Source: Pseudomonadota bacterium (GTDB lineage Bacteria; Bdellovibrionota; Bacteriovoracia; Bacteriovoracales; Bacteriovoracaceae). Taken from it: a stretch of 43,388 nt of DNA. Below are positions 14,560 through 19,448 of this stretch, piece by piece; positions within the stretch are counted from its first letter, which is position 1; each line of letters opens with the position of its first letter. The notes under the pieces are model-generated. The model was not told the DNA's origin and made no database searches. It saw only the letters and a list, made by a program, of their open reading frames with translations. The stretch spans positions 1 to 43,388 of the forward strand of contig JAIYDC010000010.1 of NCBI GenBank assembly GCA_027487685.1, given 5' to 3'. The position numbers and the translations under genes were made by a program.

Positions 14560-14587
14560 TTATTTAATTCTCACTTGCCTGACTGGA

Positions 14588-14609
14588 GCCGCCTGACTAC
14601 TGTGGCGGC
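14588..14609 (+). promoter_or_regulatory. GC-rich hairpin abutting the APP1 copy 1 start
   Basis: GCCGCC (14588-14593) and GGCGGC (14604-14609) form a six-pair all-GC stem with a 10-base loop, ending one base before the ATG at 14611. The only GGAG-like site (14585-14588) touches the 5' arm. The structure could limit ribosome access. If a GTG at 14602 is used, it would lie within the loop. Confidence 0.35.
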
Positions 14610-14610
14610 C

Positions 14611-15372
14611 ATGAAAGTCTTCTTCCTCCTTATAAGTCTCTCAAGTTTTACTACCTTTGCTGGAGTCACCCTCATTAGTGACCTGGACGACACGATCAAG
14701 ATCACGAACGTCGCGAATAAGCCCCGCGCCACTTATAACGGAATTTTTGGGCGCAGAGTTTTTGCTGGGATGCCGGAGTTCTTCGAGGAAGCTCGAAAGT
14801 ACGCCTCAGAACTCCATGTGGTTTCTGCCTCTTTCAAAATCATACGCCCAAGCGTGATCAAAACCCTTGAACTCCATGGCATCGAGGCAGAGTCTATCAC
14901 CCTTCGAAACCCACTCCTTCGAGGGGGGAAGATCTCGTACAAGCTCCGTGCCATCTCGCGCATCATCGACTCTGGAGTCGATGATATCGTTCTGATTGGC
15001 GACGACGTCGACAAGGATCCGGAAATCTTTGTCGAGATCCAGCGCCGCTACCCGGGAAGGATTCTGGCCTCCTATATCCACGTGATCCGGAATCGCCCTC
15101 TGCCAGAGGGCGAGGGCCTTGAGACCTACTACACGGCCGCCGATCTTGCGTTGCGGGAGTTTCTCGCGGGTCGGATGGATCTAGAATCAACCTCTCGCAT
15201 TTTTGAGCGCCTCATTCTCGATGAGTCTCTTTTCAACGTCATCCCGGGCTTCGCCCACTGCCCGAGCGAGAGCACCATCTGGGATTGGCAACTCGGGACC
15301 GTGTTCTCAGAAGAGGCCTCACGCCTGGTGGATAGGATTATCCAGCACTGCACGCCCTCACCGAAGTCTTGA
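14611..15372 (+). CDS. Secreted APP1-type (DUF2183) phosphatase-like protein, copy 1
   Basis: A 253-residue protein with a short signal peptide (residues 1-17, MKVFFLLISLSSFTTFA) followed at once by the HAD-like motif SDLDDTIKIT. A second acidic motif GDDVDKDPE lies near residues 130-138. These are the signatures of the APP1/LNS2 phosphatidate phosphatase catalytic domain (PF09949), whose eukaryotic members dephosphorylate phosphatidic acid. The cargo here would be periplasmic or exported. The frame extends upstream to GTG 14602 and TTG 14575, but the ATG at 14611 gives the best signal peptide. A GC-rich hairpin (14588-14609) abuts this ATG. A paralogue follows 85 bases downstream. Confidence 0.87.
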   Translation: MKVFFLLISLSSFTTFAGVTLISDLDDTIKITNVANKPRATYNGIFGRRVFAGMPEFFEEARKYASELHVVSASFKIIRPSVIKTLELHGIEAESITLRNPLLRGGKISYKLRAISRIIDSGVDDIVLIGDDVDKDPEIFVEIQRRYPGRILASYIHVIRNRPLPEGEGLETYYTAADLALREFLAGRMDLESTSRIFERLILDESLFNVIPGFAHCPSESTIWDWQLGTVFSEEASRLVDRIIQHCTPSPKS

Positions 15373-15457: not shown

Positions 15458-16231
15458 ATGTCGCCCATGAAAAACACCATCTTAAGTTTCCTCTTCCTCT
15501 TCCTCTTTTCTTTTTCCCTTAACGCCTCCGTCGCGATCCTGAGCGATCTTGACGACACGATTAAGATCACCGAGGCCGGTGGCAACCCCACGGACATCAT
15601 CGGTGATGACGTCTACACTGGCATGCCTGAGTTCTTCGAGGGCGCTAAGGAATATGCCTCCGACCTCTACATCCTCTCTGCTTCACCGTCGTTCATGCGA
15701 GGTAAGATTGAGGGCACTCTCTCTAAGCGGCGGATTAACTACCGGGGCCTCATTCTTCGCAAGAACATCTTCAAGGATAAGTTTGAGTATAAGGTCCGGG
15801 AGATCCGCCGGATCATGGATTCGACTTCCGAAGATTTTGTCTTCATTGGCGATGATCTCGGCAAAGACCCTGAGGTTTATGCGGAAATCAAGCGCCTCTA
15901 CCCGGCCCGGGTCTTGGGGAGCTATATCCACGTCGTGAATGGTCGCCCCTTTCCGACTGCCAGCAACGTCCCTTACTTTACGAGCTTTGACCTCGCCCTC
16001 CGCGAGCACATGTCATACCGGATCGATGCTGCTTGGATTGAACGGATCGCCCAGCGACTCCTTGGAGAGCGGGACCTATCCATGATATTCCCTACTAAAG
16101 CTCAGTGCCCGACCGAGGCCACTGTTTGGGAGTGGCAAACGCGGACGATCTTCCAGCGGGAAGCCCAGGAGCTCACCTCACGCTTCATCCGCTTCTGCCA
16201 AGCGAGACGGTCGGATATAATTCCGAACTAG
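15458..16231 (+). CDS. Secreted APP1-type (DUF2183) phosphatase-like protein, copy 2
   Basis: A 257-residue paralogue of the preceding protein with the same layout. The signal peptide is residues 4-23 (MKNTILSFLFLFLFSFSLNA, counting from the second ATG at 15467). SDLDDTIKIT follows, then GDDLGKDPEVYAEIKRLYP near residue 137, and a tail with CPTEATVWEWQ that matches CPSESTIWDWQ in copy 1. The two copies align end to end, so they come from a tandem duplication, but they have diverged well beyond recent copies. Either ATG (15458 or 15467) is possible. Its 3' end carries the candidate promoter of mpl. Confidence 0.87.
   Translation: MSPMKNTILSFLFLFLFSFSLNASVAILSDLDDTIKITEAGGNPTDIIGDDVYTGMPEFFEGAKEYASDLYILSASPSFMRGKIEGTLSKRRINYRGLILRKNIFKDKFEYKVREIRRIMDSTSEDFVFIGDDLGKDPEVYAEIKRLYPARVLGSYIHVVNGRPFPTASNVPYFTSFDLALREHMSYRIDAAWIERIAQRLLGERDLSMIFPTKAQCPTEATVWEWQTRTIFQREAQELTSRFIRFCQARRSDIIPN
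16211..16226 (+). promoter_or_regulatory. Consensus -10 box inside a dyad, candidate mpl promoter/operator
   Basis: A perfect TATAAT (16216-16221) is flanked exactly by the inverted repeat TCGGA (16211-16215) and TCCGA (16222-16226), at the very end of APP1 copy 2. At a 17-base spacing the -35 position reads TTCTGC, a poor match. A start near 16228 would yield a leader made up almost only of the large hairpin in front of mpl. A dyad centred on a -10 box is a classic repressor-site arrangement. Confidence 0.4.
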
Positions 16232-16236
16232 AAAGT

Positions 16237-16294
16237 GCCCAAACCTTTTTCGTTCCTGTTAAAATAGCAGGACCAACGAAAAAGGATTTTGGGC
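16237..16294 (+). promoter_or_regulatory. Large leader hairpin that buries the mpl ribosome binding site
   Basis: Three nested stems can be read directly. The outer stem pairs 16237-16243 (GCCCAAA) with 16288-16294 (TTTGGGC). The middle stem pairs 16244-16254 (CCTTTTTCGTT) with 16275-16285 (AACGAAAAAGG), 11 perfect pairs. The inner stem pairs 16255-16258 (CCTG) with 16268-16271 (CAGG). That makes 22 base pairs interrupted only by a 2-base and a 3-base bulge. The mpl ribosome binding site AAGGA (16282-16286) lies mostly inside the middle stem, and the hairpin ends on the base before the ATG. No T tract follows, which argues against a simple terminator and for translational control. Confidence 0.6.
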
Positions 16295-17743
16295 ATGGAC
16301 CTCTCTCAGCTGATCTCTCAGGCCGACCTCATTAAGCGTCGCTCCGCTATTAAAAAAGTATTCTTTTATCGCATCTGTGGTGCCGGCATGGGTCCTGCTG
16401 CCGTGCTCGTAAAACAGGCCGGCTTCGACGTTCATGGTGCCGATTCCGCCTACTATCCTCCCATGAGCACCTTCCTTGAAACCACGGGAATCCCTTTATT
16501 TAAACTGGATGAGGTGACACCGGAGTTCTTGCGACGCTACGACTTGATCGTTGTTGGAAACTCCGTCTCTGGCAAGGCCGAAGCCGCTCGCATGATTGAG
16601 CAAGCAGGGGTTCCGTTTACGTCCTTCCCCTCAGCGCTTGGGTCCCTGGTACTGAAGGATAAAAATGTCATCGGTATCGCTGGAACTCACGGTAAGACGA
16701 CCACGACTTATTTTATGACTCAGCTACTTGAGAAGCTGGGGCAGAACCCAGGCTATCTCGTCGGTGGCATCATTGAGGGGCGTGATCCGGCAAAACTCGG
16801 AGATAAGTATTTCGTGATTGAGTCCGACGAGTACGATTCAGCTTATTTCCACAAAATTTCTAAGTTCCGTCTTTATGAACTCAAGCACATGATTCTCACG
16901 AGCCTTGAGTATGACCACGCCGATATCTTCGCTTCCGTGGAGAAGATCGAAGACGAATTCCGTGCGATTCTACCGGACCTTCACTCGACTCTGGTCATCA
17001 ATCAGGAGTACGCCTCGGCGATGAAGCTCTACCGTGAGTACGTTGGTAAAAATTCGGCCCAGAAGTGGTTCCTTTACGGAGAGGGCTCGGAATCCGGCCC
17101 TCAAAATGTGTGCACATTCGAAAATGGCTCAGAGTTCTCTGTGACTTGGAAGGGCGAAAGTCTCCCATTCACCTCTAGTGTCGTGGGTCAGCATAACGTT
17201 CTTAATCTCACGAGCTGCATCCTCTTCCTCCTCTCAGAGGGCTTCGCTCCCGCCGACGTCCAGCGGGCCGCCCGTGAGATTGGTATGGTTAAGCGGCGGC
17301 AGGAAGTGAGGGGCACCTACAAAAATATGACCGTCATCGATGACTTCGCTCACCACCCACGCGCTATAACAGTGACCCTCGATGCCGTCCGAGCGCGCTT
17401 TAAAGGTAAGAAGATTATCACGATCTTTGAGCCCATCTCCGCGACGGCCCGTTCTTCCATTTTTCAGGCGGAGTTTCGTGACTCTCTTGCGGCCTCTGAT
17501 AAGGTGATCATCGCAAAGGCCAGCATCCCGACCACGGCCCTTAACGGTAAGGACCTCGACGTTGACCTTTTAGCGCGGGAACTCGGTGACCGAGGAAGGC
17601 CATCTGCCTGCGTGACCACCCTCGCAGACCTGCGGCAAACGATCGATCAGTACAACGAAACGGATAGCGTGCTCTTGGTTCTGAGTAACCGCACGTGCCT
17701 GGGACTTTGGGAGTCGAGCTTTGTTCAAGAACTTACGCCCTAG
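16295..17743 (+). CDS. mpl: UDP-N-acetylmuramate:L-alanyl-gamma-D-glutamyl-meso-diaminopimelate ligase (Mpl)
   Basis: Mpl attaches recovered murein tripeptide to UDP-MurNAc, returning it to peptidoglycan synthesis. The 482-residue Mur ligase has the N-terminal motif ICGAGMGPAAVLVKQAG (28-44), then GADSAYYPPMSTFLE (48-62), which is typical of Mpl rather than MurC. The ATP-binding site is GTHGKTTT (130-137) and the Mpl-type DDFAHHP stretch lies near 340. The ATG at 16295 has AAGGA 8 bases upstream and is preferred over an in-frame TTG two codons earlier. That AAGGA lies inside a large leader hairpin. The 3' end overlaps by 23 bases the TTG start of the lipoprotein gene. Confidence 0.93.
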   Translation: MDLSQLISQADLIKRRSAIKKVFFYRICGAGMGPAAVLVKQAGFDVHGADSAYYPPMSTFLETTGIPLFKLDEVTPEFLRRYDLIVVGNSVSGKAEAARMIEQAGVPFTSFPSALGSLVLKDKNVIGIAGTHGKTTTTYFMTQLLEKLGQNPGYLVGGIIEGRDPAKLGDKYFVIESDEYDSAYFHKISKFRLYELKHMILTSLEYDHADIFASVEKIEDEFRAILPDLHSTLVINQEYASAMKLYREYVGKNSAQKWFLYGEGSESGPQNVCTFENGSEFSVTWKGESLPFTSSVVGQHNVLNLTSCILFLLSEGFAPADVQRAAREIGMVKRRQEVRGTYKNMTVIDDFAHHPRAITVTLDAVRARFKGKKIITIFEPISATARSSIFQAEFRDSLAASDKVIIAKASIPTTALNGKDLDVDLLARELGDRGRPSACVTTLADLRQTIDQYNETDSVLLVLSNRTCLGLWESSFVQELTP

Positions 17744-19448
17744 CGCACTCGCTCTTACACTCTGTTTGGGCTCGGTCAGCTCCTGTGCCTCCTCCCCGAT
17801 ACAGTGGGAGGGAGACCTCAAGAAGCATGCAAAAAGCTACATGCACGCATTCGACGACTTTCGAAAAAAGATCTGCGTTCCTAAGGCCGAGACGCTCTTT
17901 GATCAGTATCTTTTAGCATACCGGGGACAGGGTTACTGGATTCCCGAACTTGAAGGTGACGTCGACGTCGAAACCATCCGTTCGCTCCTTCCTCAGATGG
18001 AACGAAAGCTTTCCTGGATCAGAACCCAGCGGGAGCTCGTGGAGCGGAAAGGTATTCCCCTTGCCAATGTGACGAAGGAATCTCGATCGCTTTTAGGCCG
18101 ACTCCTCGCTTTGAAGAAAACGGAACTGTCCCCAGATGAGGTACAACGGACAGCTGCCCGAAAAGAGTCATTGAAGCTTCTGGGGGATCTCCTGAGGAGC
18201 TACGAAGTACTGATTAAGAAGGTCTCGTTTCTCTCGAGTTTTCAGTACCCGGTTGATCACTTGAAGAACCGGAAGGTGCACGACAGTTACCGGGAGAAAG
18301 AAGACCTGGAGTCGGTCAAAATCTCCAATTACACCTTCCTCTATCGAAAACTGCTCGAGGACGGAGCGTACAACAAGGACCGGAGCGGCTCCGACATCTA
18401 CCTCCGGACTACCATTGACTCCCTCCACTTTGAACTCGCTCAACACGACTTCTACCTCTCCGAGGATGCCCGCTATGACGCTGACTTTGTGCTGGCGAAG
18501 ATAGAATCCGAACTCGGAAAGGGCAGGGCCAGGATCTCAGAGCGCCTTGAGGAGTGGGAGGAGAGGACTCAGCGGACTTACGATTTCTACCACTCGCTGA
18601 CACTTCCAGAGAACCAAGTGCCTGCGATTGCAGGGGATCGTTCCTCAACACCGAACCGTCAACTTATTCGCGAGCATAATCGCGCCGCGGACCGGCTTAA
18701 AGATTACGTTTATACGAAGCAAGCCGAGGTTTACAAGCATTGGCTGAATCAGCCGGAACTGGCGCGAGCCATCTTTGTCTTAGAAACGATCCTTTTAAAC
18801 GAAGTGGGTGGTGTCGATGGTGAGGATGCTCTCGAGCGAATGGATGTCGCGCGGGTGGTGATGAACCGACTCGACAAGCCGAAGTACCTTGCTATCGGAA
18901 AGAAAGAGTTCATCCTACCCTACCTCCTGAAGACCAATAGCGCGTTTGCGGTTCAGAATGAACGCTGGCTTAACGCTCTCTTTAAGCAAGGAGAATTCTC
19001 TTTTACGTACTACTACATGGGCGGCGTCGCTAAAATCTTTTGTCCCGACATGGCGCCAGGCGCCCGGAAGCTCAGGCAGCGAAACGTCGAGATCGCTCTC
19101 CAGGTTTTAAAGGAAACCCCTACATCGTTTAAGACCACCCGCTACTTTTCCCGAGCGAGCATGATCGGTCGGATTCACATGGACTCTATCTGGGAAGATT
19201 ACATCCCGTACCCCGAAAGACCGGGTCTCCTCGCCAGTGGCCAGGACCGTCTCCTCGCTGAGTTTCAGGCCGGCAATTACACTTATCATTACGCTTTCAC
19301 TGATCCGGAGTTTTCCATTTACCAGGTTTTAGAGATCGGTGGCCGGACTTATTCCCTCGGAGAGAGGAGTGGGCTCAAGCTTTTCTTTGAGCACCGGAAT
19401 CCACACTATTTTCGCTACTTCACAAAAACTGAAATCAAGAGTCAGTAG
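17721..19448 (+). CDS. Large lipoprotein with a possible cell-wall-hydrolase-like C-terminal region
   Basis: A 575-residue protein with a lipoprotein signal: hydrophobic residues 9-18 and lipobox VSSC with the lipidated C22. Residues 80-330 are mostly charged helices. Around residue 350, VLETILLNEVGGVDGED is followed by MDVARVVMNRLD. This pattern faintly recalls SleB/CwlJ-type hydrolases, where a Glu precedes an A-x-V-x-NR helix. I treat that as a weak inference. The start is TTG (17721) with GGGAG (17709-17713) 7 bases upstream, inside the end of mpl; no other start would keep the signal peptide. The 23-base overlap implies translational coupling to Mpl, so a role in wall turnover is plausible. 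Confidence 0.8.
   Translation: MFKNLRPSALALTLCLGSVSSCASSPIQWEGDLKKHAKSYMHAFDDFRKKICVPKAETLFDQYLLAYRGQGYWIPELEGDVDVETIRSLLPQMERKLSWIRTQRELVERKGIPLANVTKESRSLLGRLLALKKTELSPDEVQRTAARKESLKLLGDLLRSYEVLIKKVSFLSSFQYPVDHLKNRKVHDSYREKEDLESVKISNYTFLYRKLLEDGAYNKDRSGSDIYLRTTIDSLHFELAQHDFYLSEDARYDADFVLAKIESELGKGRARISERLEEWEERTQRTYDFYHSLTLPENQVPAIAGDRSSTPNRQLIREHNRAADRLKDYVYTKQAEVYKHWLNQPELARAIFVLETILLNEVGGVDGEDALERMDVARVVMNRLDKPKYLAIGKKEFILPYLLKTNSAFAVQNERWLNALFKQGEFSFTYYYMGGVAKIFCPDMAPGARKLRQRNVEIALQVLKETPTSFKTTRYFSRASMIGRIHMDSIWEDYIPYPERPGLLASGQDRLLAEFQAGNYTYHYAFTDPEFSIYQVLEIGGRTYSLGERSGLKLFFEHRNPHYFRYFTKTEIKSQ

Follow-up and report, generated by a model that had tools for sequence, protein, structure and literature searches.

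The 63 bp that separate an app1 homologue from an mpl homologue in a genome of the Bacteriovoracaceae (Bdellovibrionota) hold most of a long hairpin that covers the ribosome binding site of mpl, and this locus raises the question of which RNA carries the hairpin and what it does there. The Bacteriovoracaceae are a group of predatory-type bacteria, and the named relatives are Bacteriovoracaceae MAGs. The window, the whole stretch of DNA that was analysed, comprises 43,388 nucleotides of contig JAIYDC010000010.1. The two genes are as follows:

15458..16231, + strand: app1 homologue, with a phosphatidate phosphatase APP1 catalytic domain (open reading frame; Pfam PF09949, E 3.4e-14).
16295..17743, + strand: mpl homologue, a Mur ligase of the UDP-N-acetylmuramate:tripeptide ligase type (TIGR01081, PDB matches, MDL start).

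The stop codon of app1 occupies 16229–16231, and the mpl ATG (16295–16297) is backed by a conserved MDL start in relatives. The mpl protein scores 279 bits against TIGR01081, below the curated cut-off of 388.7 and above the murC score of 218, and its top PDB matches are 3hn7 and 3eag, the second of which is named as an Mpl ligase. At C77, the same genome encodes another Mur ligase homologue, which is more distant (26% identity). Judged from these matches, mpl is a fair name for 16295–17743, if not a proven one. The app1 homologue is the second of two tandem APP1-domain paralogues in the window (14575–15372 and 15458–16231), and the pair is preceded by a serine-hydrolase gene of the beta-lactamase family; in some relatives, genes that look like serine-hydrolase homologues when their sequences are read by eye directly adjoin mpl. 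At the other end, a lipoprotein-like gene (17721–19448), with no Pfam or NCBIfam match, overlaps or abuts the mpl stop codon and is probably co-transcribed with mpl. The elements between the two genes are the following:

16235..16261, + strand: 5' arm of the hairpin (RNAfold; arm-swap and arm-shuffle tests).
16257..16265, + strand: extended −10 promoter element TGTTAAAAT, inside the hairpin (conservation; transcription predicted to start near 16272).
16265..16296, + strand: 3' arm of the hairpin, which holds the ribosome binding site and extends to the A and T of the mpl ATG (RNAfold).
16282..16286, + strand: Shine-Dalgarno sequence (SD) of mpl, AAGGA, paired in read-through RNA and open in the predicted native RNA.

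The RNA of 16235–16296 folds at −34 to −41 kcal/mol. For 16211–16300, RNAfold gave −40.9 kcal/mol, versus −15.8 kcal/mol for shuffled sequences (z −8.7), none of the 200 shuffles being as stable. No other close inverted repeat in the window is as long, and the mpl start has the lowest energy among 356 gene-start regions sampled over about 390 kb of this genome. An earlier, sequence-only reading of this DNA had described a three-tier hairpin of 7 + 11 + 4 pairs that contains AAGGA and ends on the base before the ATG. The three tiers and the enclosed AAGGA are borne out in substance, with revised counts of 9 (16235–16243/16288–16296), 10 (16244–16253/16276–16285) and 8 pairs (16254–16261/16265–16272), and the pairing runs on into the start codon. 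A search of the genome for further copies of the palindrome yielded the query with its reverse strand and otherwise nothing but chance matches of 14–17 bases; a REP-like genomic repeat is ruled out by this single copy.

Whether mpl mRNA carries the hairpin depends on where its transcription starts. The pattern TGnTAnnnT is found at −38 to −32 from the mpl ATG in 21 of the 24 genomes of the genus, at a nearly fixed spacing, and its T, G, T, A, A and T columns are near-invariant. A −35 match is not apparent (mean of 3.0/6 at the best spacing), as expected for an extended −10 promoter. By this conservation, mpl transcription should start near 16272, from the internal element, and the native mRNA would consequently lack the 5' arm and leave the ribosome site open.

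The pairing of the arms persists while their sequence changes, as an alignment-free comparison shows. RNAalifold on a sequence alignment gave a weak result (−3.8 kcal/mol), since the register of the arms moves by a single base, and a swap test was therefore used, in which 5' arms were exchanged between genomes. The mean interaction fell from −11.9 kcal/mol with the genome's own arm to −6.6 kcal/mol with a swapped arm (z −10.3; 0/5000 rearrangements as good), and shuffling of the 5' arm alone destroyed stability, at or below the 4% level, in 18 of the 24 genomes; the nulls preserve composition but not phylogeny. Arms that differ and still pair are illustrated by GAGTTCTGCTA/TGGCTAGAACTC in G010 and CCTTGAGTTCT/AGAACTCCAAGG in G004. 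A list of pairs changed in both arms arises by construction and was not counted as proof. Summed over 16, the folding energies of the two strands are nearly the same (−346 vs −327 kcal/mol), and wobble pairs are therefore no proof of selection on this RNA strand. The arms thus evolve together, and the check for conservation and covariation proposed in the earlier reading came out in favour of the hairpin, which is kept in relatives sharing the app1-mpl order.

We consider it rather probable that the hairpin insulates mpl, at the level of translation, from transcription that reads through from upstream. The mpl promoter lies within a palindrome, and the 3' arm of this palindrome is the ribosome binding site of mpl. 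RNA made from this promoter would begin without the 5' arm and be translated, whereas RNA reading through from app1 would have both arms, fold over AAGGA and the ATG, and be translated poorly, so that mpl expression would be shielded from upstream transcription. The start site, the read-through RNA and the repression are predicted elements of this scheme; what the computations show is the fold, the conservation of the internal −10, the joint change of the two arms and the co-directional orientation of the upstream gene. The complete 5' arm is present only in RNA coming from upstream, for which app1 is a possible source. Opening AAGGA is predicted to cost 9.0 kcal/mol in read-through RNA vs 1.3 kcal/mol in the predicted native RNA, and the means for the SD over the genus are 5.5 and 1.1 kcal/mol, respectively (24 genomes, predicted folds). 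The difference reaches at least 3 kcal/mol in 16 of these 24 genomes, the site being hidden in the read-through and exposed in the native RNA. SD hiding is absent in the other eight, two of which (G013 and G025) have app1 upstream, and several of these losses group in one subclade of the mpl tree. The gene upstream of mpl is co-directional in all 23 genomes in which it is visible (app1 in 15, other genes in 8).

Outside this locus, SD hiding was only weakly commoner behind co-directional genes in a sample of about 1.5 Mb from three genomes (7/42 vs 3/80 at 4 kcal/mol, p 0.019; p 0.39 in a rank test), and this weak enrichment does not amount to a genus-wide rule of promoter-in-hairpin starts. 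The best other hairpin case in this genome is the leader of an RNase E/G gene (L121, 7640–9218; C72), in which a 12-bp hairpin with the arms TGTATCCTGAC/GTTAGGATACA hides the ribosome site and has CATAAT in its loop. It was set aside as a parallel case: a comparable hairpin was not recognised in the relatives read, and start calling is uncertain.

The hairpin could instead serve app1, as a 3' end that protects its mRNA or ends transcription (Rho-linked or as a weak intrinsic terminator), the pairing with the mpl site being a by-product of a 60-bp gap. It begins a few bases past the app1 stop codon, and SD-hiding hairpins are found in 13 of the 15 genomes where app1 precedes mpl vs 3 of the 8 with another upstream gene. 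However, no terminator-like site was found and no conserved T run follows the stem in the genomes of the genus; an intrinsic terminator, which needs a G+C-rich stem with a T run directly behind it, was rejected, in agreement with the earlier reading, which had thought a plain terminator unlikely. In addition, the ribosome site is covered also in wider gaps and behind other upstream genes (G014, G015 and G024; M0603 in another genus), and in the gaps of 85–97 bp (G014, G015, G017 and G024) the hairpin covers it without spatial need. A role at the app1 3' end seems unlikely as the explanation of the hairpin, and it is possibly compatible with insulation rather than exclusive of it.

The sequence-only reading had placed the promoter further upstream, at a TATAAT (16216–16221) framed by TCGGA (16211–16215) and TCCGA (16222–16226), from which an mRNA starting near 16228 would carry the hairpin as a leader to be opened by a signal. 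The motif and its arms are present as described, and the hairpin would fill such a leader. However, this TATAAT recurs in only 3 of the 15 app1-mpl junctions (those of G000, the present genome, G006 and G018), with the dyad in G000 and G006 and without it in G018, and it sits within app1 coding sequence, in the final codons. The geometry of the dyad is also cheap, since five-bp arms with a 6-nt loop occur 65 times in the window. The conserved element is the internal −10, and the window contains no Rfam match at gathering score to riboswitch, leader or thermometer families. The TATAAT is probably the wrong promoter, and control of the leader by wall-turnover state, temperature or an RNA-binding protein, would depend on it; the stability of the hairpin, −34 kcal/mol, also seems excessive for an RNA thermometer of the ordinary kind. 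A transcript start beyond 16254 had been named as incompatible with such a leader, and the start near 16272 lies there, as a prediction only. We regard a signal-opened leader as quite improbable. Least probable is a role of the palindrome as DNA, as a protein binding site or a cruciform over the promoter: it is centred on the −10 and folds about equally in both strands, but its arms vary widely in sequence with complementarity kept, unlike a site read by one protein.

The TATAAT dyad overlaps a motif that is more widely shared:

16211..16223, + strand: TCGGATATAATTC, the dyad of the earlier reading and a copy of TC[AG][AG]nTA, 49 bases upstream of the internal −10.

TC[AG][AG]nTA is found at −48 to −51 or at −38 to −41 from the −10, two distances separated by a single helical turn, in about 20 of the 22 genomes of the genus with enough upstream sequence, against a background of 1.3% of 22-base windows for a pattern that was picked after the sequences had been seen. 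It is intergenic in several genomes and may be an activator site. A whole-genome search with the pattern gave matches at control level and revealed no regulon.

Outside the genus, the hairpin is patchy and most other family members have none. G079 (M0603) and G121, from another genus, surround TGTTAAAAT with hairpins whose arms, CCTCAC...GTGAGG, are unrelated; their SD belongs to the GTGAGG type and their upstream gene is another one. In G029 and its relatives, the −10 is part of a different hairpin. In G027 (L032), G114 (L256) and G124 (L257), of another genus, a terminator-like hairpin with a T run immediately precedes the mpl start, and a TATAAT leads into this hairpin without a gap; a native start would fall in the 5' arm of this terminator, possibly giving the same insulation by another device. 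It is conceivable, if rather unlikely, that in the Bacteriovoracaceae the mpl promoter has repeatedly been rebuilt within an insulating hairpin with ever-changing arms (apparently a true terminator in another genus), keeping mpl independent of its upstream gene, and that TC[AG][AG]nTA is an mpl-specific activator site.

Insulation of mpl from read-through would have precedents. In IS10 and similar transposase genes, occlusion of the ribosome site protects against outside transcription; read-through RNA folds over the site as it would at mpl, although IS10 is a mobile element and uses a terminal inverted repeat. The ribosome sites of phage T4 gene e (lysozyme), I-TevI, soc and 49 are sequestered in early long transcripts (PMC3014915). 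For gene e, late promoters lie just 5' of the ribosome site, so that the 5' part of the structure is missing from late RNAs; the long transcripts yield 100-fold less lysozyme (PMC3014915). T4 gene e and mpl share a promoter in the hairpin region, a native RNA without the 5' strand (predicted for mpl), a read-through RNA that hides the ribosome site, and a layout kept in related genomes. They differ in that gene e serves phage timing under a late sigma factor, with its 100-fold repression measured, whereas mpl is a cell-wall gene on the chromosome, its −10 is of the ordinary extended type and its repression is predicted. For Bacillus subtilis sigG, it has been proposed that read-through RNA is blocked by a hairpin of >20 pairs, which RNA from PsigG is unable to form (PMC5942855). 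Like mpl, sigG is a chromosomal gene behind a co-directional gene, with a long hairpin in read-through RNA only; unlike mpl, it belongs to a sporulation switch, and its native RNA also bears a small hairpin in the leader. If insulation is confirmed, mpl would offer a clear example, on a chromosome and outside both phages and sporulation, of a promoter embedded in a hairpin that hides a ribosome site, and about two dozen variants would be available in nature whose arms stay complementary as their sequence drifts. The locus would also caution that a hairpin over a ribosome site is not necessarily a leader, as an internal promoter yields a native mRNA that never carries it. As in T4 gene e and sigG, the mpl ribosome site lies in a stable predicted helix of upstream-derived RNA, and the conserved extended −10 leaves a native RNA, from its predicted start, without the 5' strand. 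The best reading of mpl is probably read-through occlusion of the ribosome site of the T4 e and sigG kind, in which the trick is known and the gene is new.
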